From Bryobacterales bacterium (GTDB taxonomy: Bacteria > Acidobacteriota > Terriglobia > Bryobacterales > UBA6623): a stretch of DNA of 54,867 bases. The notes under the pieces were generated by a model, which worked only from the letters and a program-made list of their open reading frames with translations, made no database searches and had not been told where the DNA came from. Positions 11,047-54,867 of this stretch are shown piece by piece. The position numbers and the translations under genes were made by a program. The stretch covers positions 1-54,867 of the forward strand of contig JAPPLB010000174.1 of NCBI GenBank assembly GCA_028819575.1, in the 5' to 3' direction. Position 1 is the first letter of the stretch, and every line of letters starts with the position of its first letter.

Positions 11047-11516
11047 CCGCCCCTGGAAAAGTCACGCGGGCGGCGTTACGCTGCCTGAAGCCGAATCAGC
11101 AACCTGTGGGAGCTTCAACAACAGGGCACCGTGTCGCTGCACCGAGGGCCGACAGCAGCGCATAGCTCTTTGGACGACGGAAATATGTGGTCGTTCGTCG
11201 GAGCGGATCGACCCGGGCCTATGTCCCTCTAACTCCGTACAGATCAAGTACAGGATGCCGGCGCGGGACTGACCTCTGCACATTCGCCAGATCCTGAAAG
11301 GCCGTCCGAGAGCCTTGCGTTTGCATTTGTTCGCAAATCGAATGTCCGCACACAGCAGACGTCGAGGCCGGTGAGTGCTTCCACATCTCGGTGGCAATGC
11401 GCACCGCAGACTGACACATAAGATTCCGTGTGGCTCAACGGGGCCCTTCCGAGCGGTCGGCACGACTTGAGCGGAAGGGGCAGGCATCCGATATGTCTGG
11501 TTATCATTAGCTATTG
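11047..11516. other. 470-base gap carrying the inverted 25-bp match
   Basis: No protein family was recognised on either strand; the open frames have unusual composition, rich in Cys, Arg and Ser. Bases 11057-11081 are the exact reverse complement of 21-45 at the edge of the IS110-type element. The gap may be a relic of a mobile element or a repeat target. The end of the gap precedes a secreted glycosidase-like gene, whose promoter should lie here. Confidence 0.4.
11057..11081 (-). repeat. Inverted copy of the 25-bp sequence at 21-45
   Basis: Identical over 25 bases to the reverse complement of 21-45. Similarity fades on the side away from the transposon gene and stops sharply on the other, at the four Ts. 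It lies ten bases after the stop codon of the aldolase-family gene. Confidence 0.6.
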
Positions 11517-37848: not shown

Positions 37849-37871
37849 GCCGCCATAGACGACGCACGCCC

Positions 37872-38052
37872 AGCCTGCATTTCTCACCACCCGACGGTCG
37901 AAGCACACGATACGACCGCCAGGACTTCGTTGCGCTTGCTTGCCGTGCTCAACGTACTGTTCAAGTACGCCTGCGCGCGCCCAGCGGCTCGCGCCTCGTC
38001 CTGGCGGCCCTCTCACGCACTTCGCCTCGCCGCGTGGTGAAAAATGCAGGCT
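37872..38052. repeat. Complete fold-back repeat element, copy A (181 bp)
   Basis: Terminal inverted repeats AGCCTGCATTTCTCACCAC and GTGGTGAAAAATGCAGGCT differ at one base. Inside, further complementary pairs (AGGAC/GTCCT, CTTGCCG/CGGCA, GTACT/AGTAC-like around the centre) allow the whole element to fold into one long interrupted hairpin. It encodes no plausible protein. It is in the opposite orientation to the copy at 44824 and lies between the lactonase and propeller-PHP genes. Confidence 0.85.
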
Positions 38053-38156
38053 AGAAGTTGGGTGGGAGAGCATTCGGTCCCTCAATCCGGACGGACGAAG
38101 AATGACACCTCTACTTTTCCGTCGTCAGAGACGACAGCAATCCGCAGACTCCCTCT

Positions 38157-41141
38157 TCATCGATAGGTCACCCAGATAGGGCTCGACCAAGCCAACTCGC
38201 CATCTTCCTGCTCGACTCGAACGTAGTACCAGTGCTCCCCTGAATCAGCATCATTGTCGACGTATTCGAACTCTACCTCTTGCTTGCCGGGCTCGACTTG
38301 GTAAATGTAGGCTGCATCACGAATGAGATGCACCGCTGATACCTCTCCGGTGCCTCGTACTCGGACGCTGATCGGCAGCCTCTCGCTGCTGGTGAAGTCT
38401 TCACCCATGAAATGTTCGCCGACGCGGAAGTCGAGGATGATATTGTCCGTCGCTCCGTAAGTGCGGCGCTGACGGATGGCGTCGTGGATGCTTTCTCGGC
38501 TGGTATCGGGCGTATAAACCATGGCGTAAGAGATATGCGTCGAATAGTGGTCTGAGCTGGCAATAGTTCCGATACGATAGCCCTTCTTCCAGGCGTTCCA
38601 CACCATGCCCGGCTCCTGAAAACCACCTGGCGCTTCGCCCCCGCGGCCGTCCATGATGCCACGCGGGGCGTTCTTGTGCTCGTAGTTCTGCCGGGCGCCT
38701 TGGTAGATTTCGACCACCACGCCGACCTCGGGATCGTTGTCGGTCCAGTCAGTTCCCATACTGTTGGTGCCTGAAGTGTGCGGAATTGCCAGGCCGTTGG
38801 TCTTTTTCACCACGTCGTAGAGCAGCTTCGTGTCATTGCGGATGCCGCTGCCGAAACTCATGCTGTTGAAGGTCAGCAACTCGCCATCAGGGCTGTCGGG
38901 CAACATGAAGCGCGGGTCGATTCTCTGGAAAAATGGCACGATAGGATATTCGCGGTGCGTGTAGACCATGTTGCGATGGCCCAAGGGATTTCCGAGGTTT
39001 CTCTCGTAGCCATACAAGGTCGAGAAACGTTCCGGGAAATGGTACATGTCGGCCATCTTCTGAGTGATGAAGTTCCAATAGTCGGTGCCGCCGGCCTGAT
39101 GGTCGGTGGAGGCCCCGAAATCCATCTCGGCGGCGTCGACCATGTACCGATAGAACTCGGGCAGCGTACCGTCATCCATGCCGCCTACGTCTTGTGACAA
39201 CTCCGTGTGGCGGTGAAGGTCGCCACGCACGATCCGCAGAGTTTCGCCTCCGAGCTCGGTCCGATAATTGCGGATCGCACGCACGTCTTCTCGCTCGTTC
39301 GGATGCACTTCGAGTGCGGATGAAGGCGCCGGGCGGTAGAGGTTCAGACGGGGCTTGCCCCCCGGACCGGGCAAGGTGATCGATCCTGCAATGACGCGAT
39401 TCAGAAGCGGCCGGCTCGCAAACGCCCAATTGCGGTTCTCGTATGGCCAAAACATCCACAGCCGCCCACCGGCAGAAGCCAGACCCATGCGTGTGCTTTT
39501 TCGGGCCCAACTGTCGGGCAGCACGATCGGATCGGACCACTGATCGACTGCGAGACGCGAGACCGCATACTCCCAGTAGATGCTGGGGCGATAGGCCATG
39601 CGGCTATAGCGCCGCTTGAAAGACATCCAGAGATTTCCATCCGGGTCGAAGTGGAGTAGTGGCCGGCTCTCGCCGGTCGCGCCCAGGGCCAGAGGGTCGT
39701 TGGGCTCGAACGCTGCCGGCGACTTCCAAACATTGTTATCAAGACATACGACCTCGATGCGCCGTGTTTCGCCTAGCGGCGTGCCGGGAGCACTGTCGCC
39801 GAGCGCCGCGCCGAGGTCCTTGCCCCAGTTGACTCCGCTGGTCTCCCAAGCGACCCACGGACGTCCCATGTCATCGACCGCCACGCTCGTGTGCGCCTCG
39901 AAGCGTTCATTCGTTGTTACCTGCCTCTCTGCACCGAGCCCATCGGCCCGCGAGAAACGCCGCAGATGGATATCGTAGTTGCCGTTGTAGCGGTCCCACG
40001 CAACCCAGACGGCTCCGCCGCCCGCGGCTACCGACGGCTCCCAGTTGTTCGCGGCGCTGTTGCTAACCGAGAGAGTCTCTGACCAGCGACCGCCATGCAG
40101 ATATTTAAGCTTGACCTGAGAGTAACGGCCTTCCAGGGCCTGCCACACGACGTAGATGGTGCCGTCGGATCCTCGCGCGATGTGCGGCTCGATATCAGGC
40201 AGGGGATTGTCCGTCAAGCGATGGAGCTCACTCCATTCGTTGTCCTCCCAAGCCATGGCGTAGATATCCCAGTTGCCGTGGACGCCGTCGGCCAACTGTT
40301 GCGACCAGATCAGCCACGGTCTGCCGCCGCTGTCAGTCGCAATCTGGGGACGCCACAAATCTTCCGCGGCGCGGCCGACGGGAATAAGCCGCGTCCATTT
40401 TCCATCCTGGTAGCGCCGCAGGTTGAGCTCTTCGCGGCGGTCGTGATAGCTATACCAGGTCGTCCACAGGGTTCCGTCTTCCGCAGCGGCGATCGCAGGC
40501 GAATCATGTTGCCTCAACTCGGTGCCCGACAAGTCGGTCACCGGCGGAATGCGCGCGACGGTGGCGCGTCCATCGAGCTGCTCCTGCCAAACACCGAATT
40601 CCATTGCCATCGGAGCAAAGTTGAACTTGCCCTGCTCCGTACTGACTGCCACACGGGTGCCTGAAGTTCCCTTGCCTCGAACCAGTAACCCTTTCGGAAG
40701 CACAGCTTGTCTCATCGAGGGCCTGCCGCGTCCCGCCAATGAGGAGCCTTCGAGAATCCTGACCCTTTGGGTCCGAAGCGTCCATCCACCCTGAGGAAGC
40801 ACACGATCCGGAGGCTCGAAACGGTACCCGTCAATGTCGAAGACTTCTCCGCCTTGCACCGACAGGTTGCCATTCCAGGAAACAGGCTGACTCGCACCGA
40901 CTCCCAAAAGGATCAGCACTTGCCACAGATCCTGCTCCGGCGTCCCCCCGGGGTGCCAGGAAAACCGAGCCTGGTAGTCGAGGCCTTCCGCGGCGCGTTC
41001 CGTGAGGACATCCCGGCCACCGGCTTGCTGGGCAATCACTGCCGTTGGGGCCCAGCCGTTGAACCAAACGCCCAGCAGTGCCAAGAAACTCAACGGCGAC
41101 AAAGGAAGAGCAAGCTTTTTCATTCTCAACAGGATTTCCAT
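38157..41141 (-). CDS. Secreted beta-propeller plus PHP-like (DUF3604-type) protein
   Basis: A 994-residue exported protein with a signal peptide (about residues 7-38, ending AVIAQQ). The middle part, about 200-560, holds propeller-like repeats with Asp-box-like turns and recurring W-x-x-W/Y strands: PAIAAAEDGTLWTTWYSY, PQIATDSGGRPWLIWSQ, PHIARGSDGTIYVVWQA, PSVAAGGGAVWVAWDR, TSVAVDDMGRPWVAWET. The C-terminal domain opens with RGDLHRHTELSQD and contains FGASTDHQAGG, GYERN, LAIPHTSG and IGTIASSDHYSTH, a histidine-rich metal site of the PHP/DUF3604 kind. It ends with a short beta domain. The related C-terminal theme at 3211-5433 lacks this propeller. Substrate unknown. ATG 41123 (MKKLALPL) is an alternative start. 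Confidence 0.8.
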   Translation of the reverse strand: MEILLRMKKLALPLSPLSFLALLGVWFNGWAPTAVIAQQAGGRDVLTERAAEGLDYQARFSWHPGGTPEQDLWQVLILLGVGASQPVSWNGNLSVQGGEVFDIDGYRFEPPDRVLPQGGWTLRTQRVRILEGSSLAGRGRPSMRQAVLPKGLLVRGKGTSGTRVAVSTEQGKFNFAPMAMEFGVWQEQLDGRATVARIPPVTDLSGTELRQHDSPAIAAAEDGTLWTTWYSYHDRREELNLRRYQDGKWTRLIPVGRAAEDLWRPQIATDSGGRPWLIWSQQLADGVHGNWDIYAMAWEDNEWSELHRLTDNPLPDIEPHIARGSDGTIYVVWQALEGRYSQVKLKYLHGGRWSETLSVSNSAANNWEPSVAAGGGAVWVAWDRYNGNYDIHLRRFSRADGLGAERQVTTNERFEAHTSVAVDDMGRPWVAWETSGVNWGKDLGAALGDSAPGTPLGETRRIEVVCLDNNVWKSPAAFEPNDPLALGATGESRPLLHFDPDGNLWMSFKRRYSRMAYRPSIYWEYAVSRLAVDQWSDPIVLPDSWARKSTRMGLASAGGRLWMFWPYENRNWAFASRPLLNRVIAGSITLPGPGGKPRLNLYRPAPSSALEVHPNEREDVRAIRNYRTELGGETLRIVRGDLHRHTELSQDVGGMDDGTLPEFYRYMVDAAEMDFGASTDHQAGGTDYWNFITQKMADMYHFPERFSTLYGYERNLGNPLGHRNMVYTHREYPIVPFFQRIDPRFMLPDSPDGELLTFNSMSFGSGIRNDTKLLYDVVKKTNGLAIPHTSGTNSMGTDWTDNDPEVGVVVEIYQGARQNYEHKNAPRGIMDGRGGEAPGGFQEPGMVWNAWKKGYRIGTIASSDHYSTHISYAMVYTPDTSRESIHDAIRQRRTYGATDNIILDFRVGEHFMGEDFTSSERLPISVRVRGTGEVSAVHLIRDAAYIYQVEPGKQEVEFEYVDNDADSGEHWYYVRVEQEDGELAWSSPIWVTYR

Positions 41142-41729
41142 TCTTGTCTTGGCACGGCGCCAGTGTACATTCGCGTTGCTCCGAATGCTACTTCTGTTCG
41201 CTCTGAAACATTCACATCACCTCCACGGGTATGTGTCAGGGCTCTTCTATCCATTCTCAGACGTTGATTGGGCTGAATGAACGGCGGCCAGTGCCAAGTC
41301 CAGGTGTAAGGAAATGGCTGGGCTCTCCAAAGTGAGAATCACCCGCCGGAACGGCGCGGTGTAGGCGAAGCGAGTTTCGATGAGCAGTACGGCTATTCCT
41401 GCTACAGCAGCGGTCAGACTCGAACTGATTTTTACAGGGTTGCATCTTCTCCAAACATCAGGCAGGGAGCGCTCGGCTTGGCTTTGAACCCGGTCGGGAA
41501 TCTCTCATTTACCAGCTTCATTGCGAAATTCGAACCGGTGGAGCTGGGCGGCTTCCGAAAATCGCCGTAGGACGAAGGTCAGAACATTCCGCCGTTCCGA
41601 GCGATTTCACCCGGCGGCGTCTTCACGACCTTCAGCGTCGTCTTTGCGGAGAAAGGAATGTTCGCCCTGCTTACGGCCGTGAGCCTCGTTGACTGGCGAA
41701 TCTTCCCGAAGGAGCTTTTTGACCGGTCT
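41142..41729. other. 588-base intergenic region
   Basis: Lies between two minus-strand genes. No protein family could be assigned. One plus-strand frame near 41590-41760 reads open (QNIPPF, then VFTTFSVVFAEKGMFALL), but it runs antisense into the end of the DUF3500 gene and has a stop just upstream. I treat it as non-coding or an unrecognisable relic. No repeat of the fold-back family is here. Confidence 0.4.
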
Positions 41730-42689
41730 TCACGCCCCCTGGCGGACATTCACCCAGGTATGAACATGGGGCGCTCCCCGAAAGTACCAGAGCATCGTCG
41801 GGCTCTCCAACTGCCAGACGTCCCAAACTTCATCGCTGCCGATATCCATGTTCTTGTAGAAGGACATCGACAGGGCCGGAATGCCTCCCGCGTCGCGAAT
41901 CAGTTTCATGACCTCTTCGCGGTCTTCTTTGCGGAACGGCAAGATCAAATCGTCGAGCACGGCCTCGACAAGGCCCTTTTGGTCTCGTGAGAGCTCGCTC
42001 AGTGGAATTCCCGGAACCTCGCCCCGCTTGTTGAGCGCGATGGTCGCGGTGGCTTGCTCCGGCCTGGGGTCACCCAGCAGAGCCATCTGTCTCTGTTTCC
42101 CGTCGAGAGCCTGGTAGACCTCATTGGCTCGCTTGGCCTGATACCAGTAGACATTATCGGGGTGATGGGGTTGCTCATTGAAACTGTTCGCGGCGTGTCC
42201 GTACAAGATCGGCCCTCCGAACGCCGCGCCGTCGACCGAGTCACCATCACAGCGGGCCGTACAGTGACGCCCGGTGAGGACGAACTCGAACTGCCCGGTG
42301 CCCGGCTCTCCGAAAAGCGCGATCGAATAATTCTTCAGGCCTCCGGCATCCTCCTGGATGTGATACTCGACCTTGTCGTAGAAGTCTGGGTTGTGGAGGC
42401 CGCGGAAGATGTCCTGAATCATCGCCTGCTGGTCGGCCGAATAAAAGTCACCGATGCGATGCGGCGTGATGTGCCAGTTGTTGTCTATTTTGGAGCGCAG
42501 AGGGTGATCGAAGGGAAACGTCACCTTGCTTCTCTGTTCCGCGGACAAGCTGTCATAGAGCTGCGAGACGATGGTTTCCGATGATGAGGATGATGCCCCC
42601 GCAGCACCGGTCGCCAGCGCCAACGCGCCAAGTCCCGTGGTCTGTACGAATTGTCGGCGGTTCATCCGCCCGGATTGATCGTTATGCAT
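41730..42689 (-). CDS. Tat-exported DUF3500 protein
   Basis: A 319-residue protein with a twin-arginine signal (MNRRQFVQTTGLGALALATGAAG) starting after eight residues. The remainder fits the DUF3500 family: SLSAEQRSKVTFPFDHPLR, NNWHITPH, DIFRGLHNPDFYDKV, FSIALFGEPG-like KNYSIALFGEPGTGQFEF, LTGRHCTARCDGD, and the C-terminal WYFRGAPHVHTWVNV. The function of the family is unknown; the conserved His, Cys and acidic residues could form a metal site. ATG 42689 is supported by GGGAGG seven bases upstream; ATG 42665 would place the twin arginine at the very start. The gene stands alone between a gap and the divergent PPIase gene. Confidence 0.88.
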   Translation of the reverse strand: MHNDQSGRMNRRQFVQTTGLGALALATGAAGASSSSSETIVSQLYDSLSAEQRSKVTFPFDHPLRSKIDNNWHITPHRIGDFYSADQQAMIQDIFRGLHNPDFYDKVEYHIQEDAGGLKNYSIALFGEPGTGQFEFVLTGRHCTARCDGDSVDGAAFGGPILYGHAANSFNEQPHHPDNVYWYQAKRANEVYQALDGKQRQMALLGDPRPEQATATIALNKRGEVPGIPLSELSRDQKGLVEAVLDDLILPFRKEDREEVMKLIRDAGGIPALSMSFYKNMDIGSDEVWDVWQLESPTMLWYFRGAPHVHTWVNVRQGA

Positions 42690-42850
42690 GGCGCCCTCCC
42701 TCGACTAGACGATTTATCGCACGAACGTCATGCCGCGTCAAGCTCATGCTGACGATTCGTGGATCCTTCAACTTTTTCCGATCCTCGGAGAGGGGAAGGC
42801 GAACCGTTCAGACCTCGGATCGGTCGATCGGCTCAACAAAAACTATCGCT

Positions 42851-42856
42851 TACAAT
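42851..42856 (+). promoter_or_regulatory. -10-like TACAAT before the PPIase gene
   Basis: TACAAT ends 16 bases before ATG 42873 and overlaps the alternative ATG at 42855. If it is the -10 box, the upstream ATG cannot be used and translation starts at 42873 with a very short leader. No convincing -35. Confidence 0.3.
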
Positions 42857-42872
42857 GGGCGTTGCATCGAAC

Positions 42873-43772
42873 ATGCCCCTGGTGATCAACGGAGAGCGTA
42901 TCGAAGACGACGAGATCGCCCGCGAGGCTCAATCCTTGCAGCGGAGCTTCGAGCAGATGCCGCCGGAAATCCGCGAGACCCGGGGGCTCGATGCGGAGCA
43001 GTTCGAACGGAACCTGTGGGACTGGTCGAAAGAGAATGTCATCGAACGGGTCCTTCTGAGTCAGGAAGCCGACAAGGACACGGAGCCGGTTCCGCCCGAG
43101 GAGATCGACGAGGTTCTGGAGGAGATCAAGAAACGCCACGGAGGCAGTCAGCAGTTCAGCCTGAGCCGCGATGAGAATGAAATCCGACAGGACATCGAAA
43201 CACGGGTGCGACTCGATCGCTTGATCGGCGAGGTCACGAAAAACGTGAAGCCGCCCCGAAACAAGGAATTGGCTGACTTCTACCGCAAGAACAAGAACGA
43301 CTTCGCGGTGCCCGAGCAGGTGCGAGCAGCCCACATCGTCAAGAACGTCGATGACAAAACCGACGAGGCGACGGCGCGCGAAGCGATCCGCAAGGCCGAG
43401 GAAGAGATCGAGCGTGGCGTCCCTTTCGAGGAGGTCGCCGACCGTCACTCGGATTGTCCCGGCAACGGCGGCGACCTGGGCTACTTCACCCGTGGCCAAA
43501 TGGTGGACGAGTTCGACGAAGTGGTCTTCAACATGGAGCCCGGCAGCCGCAGCACCGTCTTCCGTACCCCGTTCGGATTCCACATCGCCAAGCTGCATGA
43601 CAAGAAACACGCGCAGATGCGCAACTTGCAAGAAGCCGGAGACGACATCAGGGAAGAACTGCTGCGCCGCAAGCGGACGAAAGCCGTGGAGGATTTCGTC
43701 GATCGCCTCAAGTCCCGGGCGGCCATTCAGGAGATTGTCACCGCGGAGGCGACCAACTTCGCGATCAAGTGA
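42873..43772 (+). CDS. Parvulin-type peptidyl-prolyl isomerase (PpiC/SurA-like)
   Basis: A 299-residue protein with a helical SurA-like N-terminal domain (MPLVINGERIEDDEIAREA, through an EEIDEVLEEIKKRHGG stretch). A parvulin rotamase domain follows at about residues 145-240, with VRAAHIVKN, GVPFEEVADRHSDCPGNGGDLGYFTRGQMVDEFDEVVFNM and FRTPFGFHIAKL, including the two conserved active-site histidines. There is no signal peptide, so it is probably cytoplasmic, unlike SurA. The start is uncertain: ATG 42855 gives six more residues. Its TGA overlaps the ATG of the formylglycine-generating enzyme gene, so the two are translationally coupled. This suggests that the PPIase may help the partner enzyme or its substrates. 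Confidence 0.9.
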   Translation: MPLVINGERIEDDEIAREAQSLQRSFEQMPPEIRETRGLDAEQFERNLWDWSKENVIERVLLSQEADKDTEPVPPEEIDEVLEEIKKRHGGSQQFSLSRDENEIRQDIETRVRLDRLIGEVTKNVKPPRNKELADFYRKNKNDFAVPEQVRAAHIVKNVDDKTDEATAREAIRKAEEEIERGVPFEEVADRHSDCPGNGGDLGYFTRGQMVDEFDEVVFNMEPGSRSTVFRTPFGFHIAKLHDKKHAQMRNLQEAGDDIREELLRRKRTKAVEDFVDRLKSRAAIQEIVTAEATNFAIK

Positions 43773-44764
43773 TGAACAGCCGATTGCCGATTCACCCGCG
43801 GACCAGCGAGCCGGCCCCGTGTTGCGTGCCGAGCAAGGAACGCGCCGAGCGGCTGGCCGAATCACGCTATCTGACCGAGAGGCGCCCACGGGTCACGAAG
43901 GGTTCGACCGAGGACATGGTCAAGCTCGAAAGCGTCTGCTTCGAGATGGGCACGGAAACCGAGGACGGGTTCCCGGCCGACGGGGAAGGGCCGATCCGCG
44001 AGGTCACTCTCGACGGTTTCTGGATCGACAAGTACCCGGTGACGAACGAGCAGTTCAAGGAGTTCGCTGAAGCGGCCTCGTACAAGACGGAAGCGGAGCG
44101 CTTCGGATGGTCTTTCGTGTTCCACAACCAGTTACCGCGTGACCGCTACGGAGAACTTGTCGACGACACGGTCGCCGGTCATGAGTGGTGGTGCAAGGTG
44201 AACGGAGCGGATTGGGCGCATCCCGAGGGACCGGACTCGAACATCGACGGGCGTCCGCACCATCCCGTGACGCACATCTCCTGGAACGACGCGCTCGCTT
44301 ATTCCAATTGGGTGGGCAAGCGCCTGCCAACCGAGGCCGAGTGGGAAGCGGCGGCGCGCGGCGGCTTGGAACAGAAGATCTATGCCTGGGGTGATGAACT
44401 CACGCCCGACGGCAAGCATATGTGCAACATCTGGCAGGGAGAGTTCCCCGTCAAAGACATCGCTGAAGACGGATACGCCGGTCCTTGTCCGGTAGACGCC
44501 TTCCCCGCCAACAGGCTGGGCCTCTACTCGGTGGCCGGCAACGTCTGGGAGTGGTGTCAGGACTGGTTTCACCCCAGCTATCACGTCTTCGCAACGACAT
44601 CAAATCCCGTAGGGCCTGCGAGCGGCTCGTCTCGTGTGATGCGAGGCGGATCGTTTTTGTGCCACCAATCGTATTGCAATCGCTACCGCGTGGCCGCACG
44701 AACGTCGAACACGTCGGACAGCTCCACCATCAACCTCGGATTTCGCGGCGTCCGTGACCTGTGA
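43772..44764 (+). CDS. Formylglycine-generating enzyme (sulfatase-activating)
   Basis: A 330-residue protein of the FGE-sulfatase (SUMF1) family that oxidises the cysteine in the CxPxR motif of sulfatases to formylglycine using copper and oxygen. Many family members are not true FGEs, but here both copper-site cysteines of the genuine enzyme are present in GGSFLCHQSYCNRYRVAAR, followed by the expected NTSDSSTINLGFRGV. Upstream: GFWIDKYPVTNEQFKEF, the substrate-binding WNDALAYSNWVGKRLPTEAEWE and AGNVWEWCQDW. No signal peptide is seen, so it acts in the cytoplasm before export of the sulfatase. No sulfatase lies in the window. A dozen or more extra N-terminal residues include CC (EPAPCCVPS). 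Coupled to the PPIase gene (TGATG). Confidence 0.95.
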   Translation: MNSRLPIHPRTSEPAPCCVPSKERAERLAESRYLTERRPRVTKGSTEDMVKLESVCFEMGTETEDGFPADGEGPIREVTLDGFWIDKYPVTNEQFKEFAEAASYKTEAERFGWSFVFHNQLPRDRYGELVDDTVAGHEWWCKVNGADWAHPEGPDSNIDGRPHHPVTHISWNDALAYSNWVGKRLPTEAEWEAAARGGLEQKIYAWGDELTPDGKHMCNIWQGEFPVKDIAEDGYAGPCPVDAFPANRLGLYSVAGNVWEWCQDWFHPSYHVFATTSNPVGPASGSSRVMRGGSFLCHQSYCNRYRVAARTSNTSDSSTINLGFRGVRDL

Positions 44765-44823
44765 ATCGGTCGCAGCAACAGGCACTTGTCGACGGTTTTC
44801 ATTCGGCCGGCTCTCGGAAAACC

Positions 44824-45007
44824 CTAGCCTGCATTTCTCACCACGCGGCGAGGCGAAGTGCGTGAGAGGGCCGTCAGGACGAGGCGCGAGCCGCTTGCCG
44901 CGCGCAGGCGTACTTGACAGTACGTCGAGCACGGCAAGCAAGCGCAACGAAGTCCTGGCGGTCGTATCGTGTGCTTCGACCGTCGGGTGGTGAGAAATGC
45001 AGGCTAG
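44824..45007. repeat. Complete fold-back repeat element, copy B (184 bp)
   Basis: Ends CTAGCCTGCATTTCTCACCA and its complement are perfect inverted repeats of 21 bases. The inside is closely related to copy A at 37872 in the opposite orientation. Internal pairs CAGGAC/GTCCTG, CTTGCCG/CGGCAAG and GTACT/AGTAC (loop TGAC at the centre) make a long fold-back structure. If the repeat proper starts at GCCTGC, TA flanks both ends, as with TA target duplications of mariner/IS630-type elements. Lies 59 bases after the formylglycine-generating enzyme gene. Confidence 0.87.
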
Positions 45008-50802: not shown

Positions 50803-50817
50803 GGCGGTCCATTCTAA

Positions 50818-51088
50818 CCCGCATTTCTCACCACCCGACGGTCGAAGCACACGATAAAAGGCCGTGATTCGTGTTTCGTGTCTCGTGATTCGTGAGAACC
50901 ATGGGAGGGAGCTTGGTTCGCTCCAGAAGAAATGTCTGACGGCCAGTGAGCCGGAAAAGCCGTGTTTCGTAACTCGAAGGGTGAAAAAGGCGATTTAGTA
51001 AGTACGCCTGCGCGCGCCAAGCGGCTCGCGCCTCGTCCTGACGGCCCTCTCACGCACTTCGCCTCGCCGCGTGGTGAGAAATGCACGC
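50818..51088. repeat. Composite fold-back repeat carrying the heptad unit
   Basis: The left end (CGCATTTCTCACCACCCGAC, then GGTCGAAGCACACGATA) and the right end (AGTACGCCTGCGCGCGCCAA to GTGGTGAGAAATGCACGCT) match copy A. The middle is replaced by about 145 bases holding five heptads at 50861-50895, then GGTTCGCTCCAGAAGAAATG. That middle unit is the reverse complement of the one at 2876-2949. This is either an insertion of one repeat family into another or recombination between them. Lies between the LamG gene and the end of the VWA-like gene. Confidence 0.78.
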
Positions 51089-51141
51089 TGACCGTTGACG
51101 ATCTCTATGATCTGAGGTGTTTGTGACAATCCCGCGGCTTT

Positions 51142-52281
51142 TCAACGCTTGACCATCGTGTCCTCGACCACCTTTTCGACGGCTTGCAAAAGCTCGCGGG
51201 CACTTCGGATGCGGAACTGCGAACCGCCCCACTCCCTGACGGCTTTGCCCAAAGTGGTATTCCACGGATGCCAAGCGAAATTGAAGTAGAACACCGGTGC
51301 GCGCGGCGGGTCAAGCTGCGTGACGCGCTCCTTGGGAATCTTTTTGCCTTCCCAATGCTCGTAGCCAATAAAAACGATCGCATCCGCACGGTCATCGTTC
51401 CGTAACTCGTCGGACAGCAGCTCTGCGATAAAGTTCGACTCGCTGTCCCGGGCCAAGTCGCGGAAGTCCACGGTTGCCGGAGCCAGTTTTCGTACCGAGC
51501 TGCCCATCGCCTGAAAGTCGAAGTCGTCGCCATAGTCCGATCGGTAGAGGATTTTCTGATCCTCTTGGCTGTATGCAACCAGAGCAAATTCGCCGAATTC
51601 CGGCCGCCGGAACAGGTTGCGCATCACGGCCACCATCGGCGCGATCAGCCAGGGGCGCACGGTGGCCCGCCGCCTCGAACCCGTATCAAGGTTGAGGAAC
51701 ACCTTGAGATTCAAATCGCCTCCAGCCGGCGATCGATCGACAGGTTCTTCCTGACGGAACAGGTATGTCCGGGCCGGTCTGATTTCTCCTGGTTCCAGAG
51801 CCAAAGGAACGTCGCGGTCCCGCCGCCCTCGCTTGGCCTCGACATCCCAAGCCACGGAGCAATAGCGCCCGAACCGCTCTGTCAGATGCCAAGTGGCGCG
51901 ATATGACCCCTCCCCAACGGCAAATGATCCACTCATTTCCACCGTTCCCTTGACGGTCTCCGGCACGGCCCCGGTCTCGACGAACTGCTCGATCGTTTCC
52001 GGTTGGGCGCTCTCGGGAGATATGGGCTCAACGACAAGCTGCATCCTCCAGACGGTCTCCGGCCCGATCAACTCCTTGAAGGGAATCTCCACCCAGTAGC
52101 CGGTATGCAATCGGAACTCCAGGTCCAGGCGCGGCTTGAATTTCTTGACCTTGCAAGAAAGCTGCTTGGTTCGGACGAAGGTGAGGTCGGGCCGCTGCTC
52201 CAGTTCGCGAATCAACGCCGTGTTGCCGGCTTGTCCGAGCACCGCCGTTGCTCCAAGGCAAAACACGATTGCCAGACGCAT
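51142..52281 (-). CDS. Secreted VWA-like protein of acidobacterial type
   Basis: A 379-residue exported protein with a Sec signal (MRLAIVFCLGATAVLGQ). Two beta-rich N-terminal segments are followed by a Rossmann-like region of von Willebrand A type: ATVRPWLIAPMVAVMRNLF, EFGEFALVAYSQEDQKILY, FRDLARDSESNFIAELLSDEL, ADAIVFIGYEHWEGK and APVFYFNFAWHPW. A canonical DxSxS metal site is not clear, so the VWA assignment is tentative. ATG 52281 is chosen because the signal peptide begins there. The open frame extends upstream to 52452, but that part is translated from a degenerate fold-back repeat and is not credible. Function unknown; relatives are common secreted proteins in this phylum. Confidence 0.72.
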   Translation of the reverse strand: MRLAIVFCLGATAVLGQAGNTALIRELEQRPDLTFVRTKQLSCKVKKFKPRLDLEFRLHTGYWVEIPFKELIGPETVWRMQLVVEPISPESAQPETIEQFVETGAVPETVKGTVEMSGSFAVGEGSYRATWHLTERFGRYCSVAWDVEAKRGRRDRDVPLALEPGEIRPARTYLFRQEEPVDRSPAGGDLNLKVFLNLDTGSRRRATVRPWLIAPMVAVMRNLFRRPEFGEFALVAYSQEDQKILYRSDYGDDFDFQAMGSSVRKLAPATVDFRDLARDSESNFIAELLSDELRNDDRADAIVFIGYEHWEGKKIPKERVTQLDPPRAPVFYFNFAWHPWNTTLGKAVREWGGSQFRIRSARELLQAVEKVVEDTMVKR

Positions 52282-52330
52282 CAACCGGGCAATAGCCACT
52301 CCTTGAGCGGTCGGATGCTCCGGCTCACTC

Positions 52331-52455
52331 TTCTCCTTACCATGCGGGACACGGAGCCTGACAAGGCCGTCAAGACAAGGCGAGAGCGGCTTTGCGCGTG
52401 AAGGCGCGCCTGATAACAGATCGAGCACGGCAAGCAAGCGCAACGAAGTCATGAC
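52331..52455. repeat. Degenerate copy of the fold-back repeat
   Basis: Only TCGAGCACGGCAAGCAAGCG and CAACGAAGTC remain identical to copy B. The surrounding ACAAGGCCGTCAAGACAAGG, CGAGAGCGGCT and GCGCGCCTGATAAC parts follow the same order with many changes. The terminal repeats are lost. Located upstream of the VWA-like gene. Confidence 0.6.
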
Positions 52456-52721
52456 GTTTGTGCAAGAAAGGCCGGTGATTCTTGATTAGTGACCCTCTAC
52501 CTATCCCCTTCCGAAAACACTGGTCACTGGCGACTGCCTACTAATGTCAAATAGCCTTACGGCGCGCTTCGACCATCAACGAAGGGGAAGCAGGATGGTC
52601 TCGATCTTTGAGAACAAATCATTGCGGGGGTTTCCCGACGAGTACGGACAGCACCTCACGAAACCGTCCTATAGACGGCCGCGCCGCCGCTGCGTTTCAT
52701 CCTGGTCGCGCTGGGGCGAAT
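52456..52721. other. Intergenic region upstream of the VWA-like gene
   Basis: No gene recognised. A short plus-strand frame (52544-52768) runs antisense into the end of the leucine-rich-repeat gene and has no family resemblance. Loose inverted similarity exists between GATTAGTGACC at 52484 and GGTCACTGGCGACTGCCTAC near 52522. Confidence 0.35.
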
Positions 52722-54740: not shown

Positions 54741-54785
54741 CAGAAACCTGCCGGAATTGTATCAGCCCCCCCAGTTCACCCTCCC

Positions 54786-54867
54786 AGCCTGCATTTCTCA
54801 CCACCCGACGGCCGAAGCACGCCATACGACCGCCAGGACTTCGTTGCGCTTGCTTGCCGTGCTCAAC
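54786..54867. repeat. Fold-back repeat element, copy cut by the window end
   Basis: Begins AGCCTGCATTTCTCACCACC and continues as copy A (GACCGCCAGGACTTCGTTGC, then GCTTGCTTGCCGTGCTCAAC) with a few substitutions. The second half lies beyond the window. Located 46 bases upstream of the leucine-rich-repeat gene start. Confidence 0.82.

Follow-up and report, generated by a model that had tools for sequence, protein, structure and literature searches.

What kind of element is the repeat that recurs in the 54,867-nucleotide (nt) Bryobacterales contig JAPPLB010000174.1 (assembly GCA_028819575.1), by what means does it move, and why does it keep a fold that spans its whole length? The window analyzed here is this whole contig (G000:C28, G000 being the genome to which it belongs), and it carries two complete copies of the repeat, copy A at 37870..38054 on the minus strand and copy B at 44824..45007 on the plus strand. 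A preliminary description of the window had regarded them as members of a non-autonomous mobile family, a miniature inverted-repeat transposable element (MITE) or something REP-like, or else as a structured RNA/DNA element shaping gene ends, and had named as checks a search for copies elsewhere in the genome, a comparison of empty and filled sites, a search for an insertion sequence (IS) with matching ends, and a covariance analysis of the fold. According to our analysis, the best explanation of the whole is, with high probability, a MITE with IS1380 ends, which inserts at YTAR and whose conserved hairpin is likely maintained by selection among multiplying copies.

Copy B is a 176-bp element (44828-45003) between two CTAG tetranucleotides (44824-44827 and 45004-45007), and copy A is a 177-bp element (37874-38050) between CCAG (37870-37873), which is CTAG with one change, and CTAG (38051-38054). 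They lie in opposite orientation, are 95 to 97% alike, and can each fold over the full length, as had been described, copy B into one long hairpin (DNA z score, -9.8; RNA, -129.6 kcal/mol with a z score of -12.5) and copy A more weakly (DNA z score, -4.6). The left terminal inverted repeat (TIR) of copy B (44828..44844, plus strand), CCTGCATTTCTCACCAC, is an IS1380-type end with its counterpart at 44987-45003. The conserved inner core GACGAGGCGCGAG..GGCGTACTTGACAGTACGTCGAGCACG..AAGCGCAACGAAGTC (44878..44954, plus strand), modeled below as R1, is also detected in other classes and phyla.

Copies proved abundant elsewhere in the genome. In the 5.37-Mb genome, the TIR core of 15 bases is matched 1005 times at ≤1 mismatch and a reversed control pattern 0 times, and the exact 17-mer occurs 516 times in G000 and 178 times in the congener G002, while another congener, G001, harbors diverged copies. 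At least 42 near-full copies are present in G000, 41 at 95 to 100% identity and one at 84%. In the 1.16 Mb of G000 examined, complete copies are mainly 176 to 177 bp long, accompanied by a 201-bp form and by longer forms of up to ~300 bp which carry another central module; the TIRs measure 17 to 21 bp. The element has no transposase gene and no open reading frame (ORF) conserved across lineages, and with a core class of 174 to 177 bp it falls within the size of bacterial MITEs (<~600 bp). The plasmids searched gave no match to the element, and the viral contigs searched gave 0 matches to the core.

Insertion can be read directly from the comparison of the 1.16 Mb of G000 with 1.14 Mb of G002, in which syntenic DNA is ~95% alike. 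Eleven positions are filled in one of the two genomes and empty in the other, with discrete limits: in 11/11 cases, the element and the 4 bp on each side of it in the filled allele correspond to a single stretch of exactly 4 bp in the empty one, as in GGG-CTAG-[element]-CTAG-AGTC versus GGG-CTAG-AGTC. At one site both genomes carry the element, and another G002 copy likewise has a filled counterpart. The repeat family is mobile and inserts precisely, and the earlier proposal of a non-autonomous MITE draws support from the number of copies, their TIRs, the duplicated targets, and the empty sites. Neither of the outcomes which the preliminary description had named as refuting it, a lack of copies elsewhere in the genome or of discrete insertion boundaries, was observed. 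According to the flanks of 179 copies, the target duplication is 4 bp long with the consensus YTAR (CTAG, TTAG, CTAA, and TTAA). TA stands at both flanks in 87 of the 179, and in 44 of these 87 the left and right 4-mers are identical, versus 19.7 expected (0/2000 shuffles). Asymmetric flank pairs are direct (TTAG/TTAG, 11; CTAA/CTAA, 6), inverted ones being rare (TTAG/CTAA, 2; CTAA/TTAG, 1). A duplication of TA only, first suggested by the flank profile, was overturned by this pairing of left and right 4-mers. Many flank pairs among the 179 copies are non-identical, perhaps through carry-over of donor flanks on insertion, and an inward CTGA/CC (TCAG on the right), two bases off CTAG, is frequent among them.

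The same genome contains ISs with matching ends. L202 is an intact IS1380-family IS of 1724 bp with the ends CCTGCATTTCTCACCA and CCCGGATATCTCACCA and the duplication CTAG/CTAG, which sits within the sequence of a MITE copy, and L198 is another of 1723 bp with the end CCCGCATTTCTCACCA and the duplication CTAA/CTAA. Each encodes a 487-amino-acid IS1380 transposase (NF033539; E values of 3e-115 and 4e-115), and the IS1380 transposase of G000 matches PF13701 with an E value of 3e-148. Both resident copies thereby combine the terminal repeat of the MITE (CCTGCATTTCTCACCA) with YTAR duplications; we therefore infer that the family is an IS1380-mobilized MITE, with IS1380 ends and moved in trans by the resident transposase. 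Since IS1380 relatives at 55 to 69% identity, from Thauera, Singulisphaera, Armatimonadota, Mesorhizobium, and Acidobacteria, share this end type (CCYGSATTTCTCAC) and YTAR duplications, both the end and the target rule are deemed characteristic of this IS1380 branch.

Two other modes of movement have to be weighed against IS1380. The preliminary description had taken the TA flanks of copy B as a hint of IS630/mariner, and a Tc1/mariner-IS630 MITE with a TA duplication, like the ERIC, RUP, or Correia elements, would suit the frequent TA on both flanks and the six IS630-type matches in the genome. However, this TA is the middle of the 4-bp YTAR duplication, which is direct over all 4 bp and is matched by the exact 4 bp of all 11 empty sites, and no IS630-type copy in the genome has this TIR at its ends, so that an IS630/mariner origin, which we consider very improbable, was rejected on the empty-site geometry and the IS1380 ends. 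Membership in ERIC was also discarded, since ERIC duplicates TA whereas 4 bp are duplicated here, a comparison made by the duplication only. Palindromes of the REP/BIME type, which a RAYT (Y1 tyrosine) transposase moves, share the high copy number, the intergenic position, and the palindromic sequence, and a few 30- to 35-bp TIR-TIR palindromes do exist. This mode is extremely improbable in view of the precise 4-bp duplication, the insertion of the element as a whole, and the lack of any Y1_Tnp (PF01797) match in G000 or G002 (a distant RAYT could be missed), which also disposes of the REP-like label given earlier. G001 has nine PF01797 matches, none with these ends.

The question of the fold was approached by comparing the copies of G000, G002, and G001 with those of G042, from another family of the same order. 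To G042, similarity is 84% in the ends and 78% over the inner 80 columns but only 41% in the outer arms, and yet these still pair. R1, a covariance model built only from the 78-nt core and thus without the ends, finds matches in 11/399 genomes of the class and in 29/396 genomes of the phylum, often with 8 to 12 or more copies each, and, among 26 chosen genomes on which the presence outside Acidobacteriota rests, in one of Pseudomonadales and one of Chlamydiae. Complete elements with 10 to 14 of 14 matching terminal bases were delimited at 20/26 R1 loci, 19 of them 174 to 177 bp long, and most are flanked by YTAR or near-YTAR; the Pseudomonadales and Chlamydiae copies are 175 to 176 bp long, with CTAG where the ends are resolved. 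The ends vary between hosts (CCTGCATTTCTCAC, CCCGGATTATTCAT, CCTGGATTTCTCGA, and CCCGCATCCGTCAC) and are matched within each element. Compensatory changes on both sides affect 25/51 pairs in the four-genome alignment, 36/54 in another, and 44/60 in the phylum-wide alignment of 18 sequences, with 0/500 shuffles in each case; in the last, 93% of cells pair and covariation amounts to 0.54, versus 0.20 in shuffles and ≤0.11 in slid controls. That 44/60 pairs are compensatory despite differing arm sequences argues that the fold is maintained and not the ends only, and the earlier suspicion of a structured RNA/DNA element holds as far as structure is concerned. The core motifs GGCGCGCG, GTAC...GTAC, and AGCGCAACG are invariant, the last together with neighboring core positions in the phylum-wide alignment, and asymmetric internal-loop motifs are kept in all lineages.

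Why the fold is kept was addressed within one genus, using 79 copies. Rare single changes break pairs in 83 cases and keep them in 46, while rare double changes number 4 versus 1.3 expected, 3 of which keep the pair. Outside the TIRs, the pair is kept by 11/42 private variants versus 20/36 shared ones (p = 0.011). Since pairs are mostly broken by recent private mutations but kept by variants that have spread, selection of the fold in multiplying copies is the most likely reading, one modestly favored by these data. An alternative without selection is that arm-to-arm correction during replication makes palindromes covary. Template switching can correct long imperfect palindromes, and the arms covary even within the TIRs, but correction sits poorly with 83 pair-breaking rare singles against 3 pair-keeping doubles, and the asymmetric internal-loop motifs persist in every lineage instead of being corrected away, so that we hold it to be unlikely. 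Another alternative supposes a structured RNA, such as a regulatory or processed 3'-untranslated-region element, which became mobile with its RNA function conserved. Covarying stems, internal motifs invariant across phyla, and an intergenic position near gene 3' ends would agree with it. However, Rfam gave no match at the gathering score and only chance-level ones at permissive thresholds, the orientation of copies relative to genes is not significantly biased (26:17 and 42:30; p about 0.2), and the proximity to stop codons is accounted for by target sites. A host function is improbable because most of the positions tested vary between congeners, and the RNA alternative as a whole is doubtful to a similar degree as arm correction.

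Selection of the fold in multiplying copies leaves several possible roles, namely, synapsis of the short ends, an extruded hairpin, or a processed RNA. In the mechanism that we propose, the resident IS1380 transposase, from a gene at another place in the genome, would recognize the CCTGCATTTCTCACCA- ends, excise or copy the element, and insert it at YTAR with duplication of the 4 bp, thus acting in trans on ends and with a duplication that are themselves observed. Insertions into genes would mostly be lost and intergenic ones retained, in keeping with the distribution of copies. The interior, a conserved hairpin of ~176 bp with co-changing arms, invariant core motifs, and near-constant length, would be part of propagation or of tolerance, its fold being likely selected in multiplying copies. 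A broader proposal, to which we give an even chance, is that of a ~176-bp superfamily of Acidobacteriota, extending into Pseudomonadota and Chlamydiota, in which hairpin and core contribute functionally to transposition or persistence; such elements would be structure-dependent IS1380 passengers whose ends adapt to the local IS but whose core, fold, and length stay the same.

A number of observations speak against the account of an IS1380-driven, fold-dependent MITE. The 17th base of the IS TIR differs from that of the MITE TIR (CCAG versus CCAC), and the IS has CCCGGATATCTCACCAG at its other end. Four genomes with core elements, G092, G338, G119, and G103, show no IS1380 gene that is intact, and G008, conversely, combines 37 IS1380 matches with 0 core matches. 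About half of the TA-containing copies have flanks which do not match at all 4 bases. Moreover, the numbers that connect the fold with propagation are modest and come from within one genus, and the p value of the contrast between private and shared variants rises to 0.23 when the cutoff is set at 3 copies instead of 1. G008 is a single-contig genome of the same family in which many of the 37 IS1380 matches are near-identical, the reverse of the situation in G000.

The position of the copies was analyzed with a simple codon-usage gene caller, by which 84% of the DNA is coding. Intergenic DNA holds 85/92 copies, and only 3 YTAR-flanked copies lie within genes, whereas 583/1249 background YTAR sites are genic (odds ratio [OR], 0.05; p = 8e-15). 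As many as 31/92 copies abut a stop codon, and the duplication often provides the stop codon of the neighboring gene, which is left intact. Stop-codon YTAR sites are, however, not overused once target frequency is counted (17:51 versus 147:519; OR, 1.18; p = 0.55), and a targeting of stop codons was therefore rejected. Together with the depletion in genes, this use at the expected rate indicates that the distribution results from the target rule plus the loss of harmful insertions, and the idea that the element shapes gene ends finds no support beyond target-site availability, the absence of strand bias speaking against regulation of gene ends by strand. A weak excess is seen between convergent genes (27/85; p = 0.012).

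Within the window, the 18-mer terminal repeat GCCTGCATTTCTCACCAC has 8 matches at ≤3 mismatches versus 0.06 expected (0/100 shuffles), and the family occupies six places, the number given in the preliminary description. Apart from copies A and B, a long-subfamily copy lies at 50814..51091 on the minus strand, with the flanks CTAA and CTGA around a 270-bp element (50818-51087) and a different central module containing CACGAATCACGAGACACG..GGCC. A second long-subfamily copy, at 2827..~2953 on the plus strand, immediately follows the stop codon that ends an IclR-type regulator gene (2054-2830), and it has lost its right end. The copy at 54784..54867 on the minus strand, with the flank CCAG followed by the first 80 bp, is interrupted by the contig end, and a decayed internal fragment without ends, 73% identical to 44835-44965, lies at 52331..52461 on the plus strand. 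All copies had been described as intergenic, which is true of five; the decayed fragment overlaps the long ORF 51142-52452. The true start of this ORF is probably internal, the likely one being the inner MRLAIVFCLG.. signal sequence.

The long-subfamily module ACATTTCTTCTGGAGCGAACCAGGC..CACGAATCACGAGACACGAAACACGAATCACGGCCTTTT (window 50855-50955 and 2880-2953; also L081, L068, and L083) differs as if cores had been swapped through recombination. Minimal palindromes of 30 to 35 bp, consisting of two back-to-back TIRs with no interior, occur at L059:8888-8917, L078:6563-6597, and L082:7025-7054. Many G000 contigs (e.g., C2, C4, C5, C6, C10, and C16) start and stop 35 to 140 bp from a TIR; the assembly breaks at this repeat, with many contig ends falling inside such repeats. 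A second repeat family of ~260 bp (CAGCCCGTGGCAAAAGTCACGC...GGGACTTTTGCCACGGGCTG; L085:12881-13142 and also L025) is polymorphic between G000 and G002, and its 25-bp inverted pair is found in the window at 21-45 and 11057-11081. Further insertions of 85 to 95 bp (GCAGGACAACGGATCGCCGCGTCAACTTGACTCGAATG...; CTAGTTTTTCCTCCGCCCGCGTGCGGATCATTC...TTTCAGG), some adjoining CTAG, are distributed between G000 and G002 (L078/L153, L088/L157, L074/L129, and L186/L172) and are more small mobile families.

Hairpin repeats of the ERIC kind have been familiar for decades, and how they move and why their fold persists lack a clear answer. Here, copies number in the hundreds within one genome, which also offers polymorphic sites, a target rule that is exact, and an intact transposase as candidate, while relatives in other phyla retain length and fold despite turnover of the arm sequence, and together these make both the identity of the transposase and the need for the hairpin testable. 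If the broader superfamily proposal is true, some lineages of bacterial MITEs would match a functional RNA or a protein-binding DNA device in their degree of conservation. A description of an IS1380-linked MITE was not found in the open-access literature, a scope that leaves subscription papers and ISfinder outside, and priority is not proven; in one MITE review, neither "IS1380" nor "Acidobacteri" occurs (PMC10969869).

Among known systems, IS1380-family ISs (DDE transposase; NF033539/PF13701) share the terminal repeat CCTGCATTTCTCACCA and the 4-bp YTAR duplications, but the element is 10 times shorter and gene-less, has only the terminal 16 to 17 bp in common with them, and possesses the long hairpin and core which they lack. 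From ERIC, which has a different sequence, duplicates TA, and is confined to Gammaproteobacteria, it is distinguished by YTAR, IS1380 ends, a candidate transposase resident in its own genome, and its presence in several phyla. Size, palindromy, intergenic location, and copy number are nonetheless alike, ERIC/IRU of Enterobacteriaceae being described as palindromic intergenic repeats of 100 to 200 bp, conserved across genera, with ≤711 copies per genome (PMC10969869). The Correia elements of Neisseria, the QMITEs of Coxiella, and Chunjie of Geobacter appear in the same review as high-copy bacterial MITEs with stable stem-loops, and its descriptions set them apart by giving neither an interphylum core nor IS1380 ends (PMC10969869). 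REP/BIME are likewise numerous extragenic palindromes, but their 20- to 40-bp size, GTAG/CGTC tag, and Y1 transposase (PMC2817692 and PMC3733652) have no equivalent in this family. IS1247, a listed IS1380 member, is recorded with an IR of 16/13 and a 5-bp duplication (PMC3281130). The eukaryotic piggyBac superfamily resembles the element by its 4-bp target, TTAA, which is widened to YTAR here, its distant relationship to IS1380 being taken from published trees (PMC10140906 and PMC10813416). By anatomy and behavior the element is a MITE and hence of a known kind, but it is a widespread, structure-conserved variant, of which no description was found in the open-access literature searched, and one which keeps its hairpin shape and central motif across several phyla, unusually for such an element.

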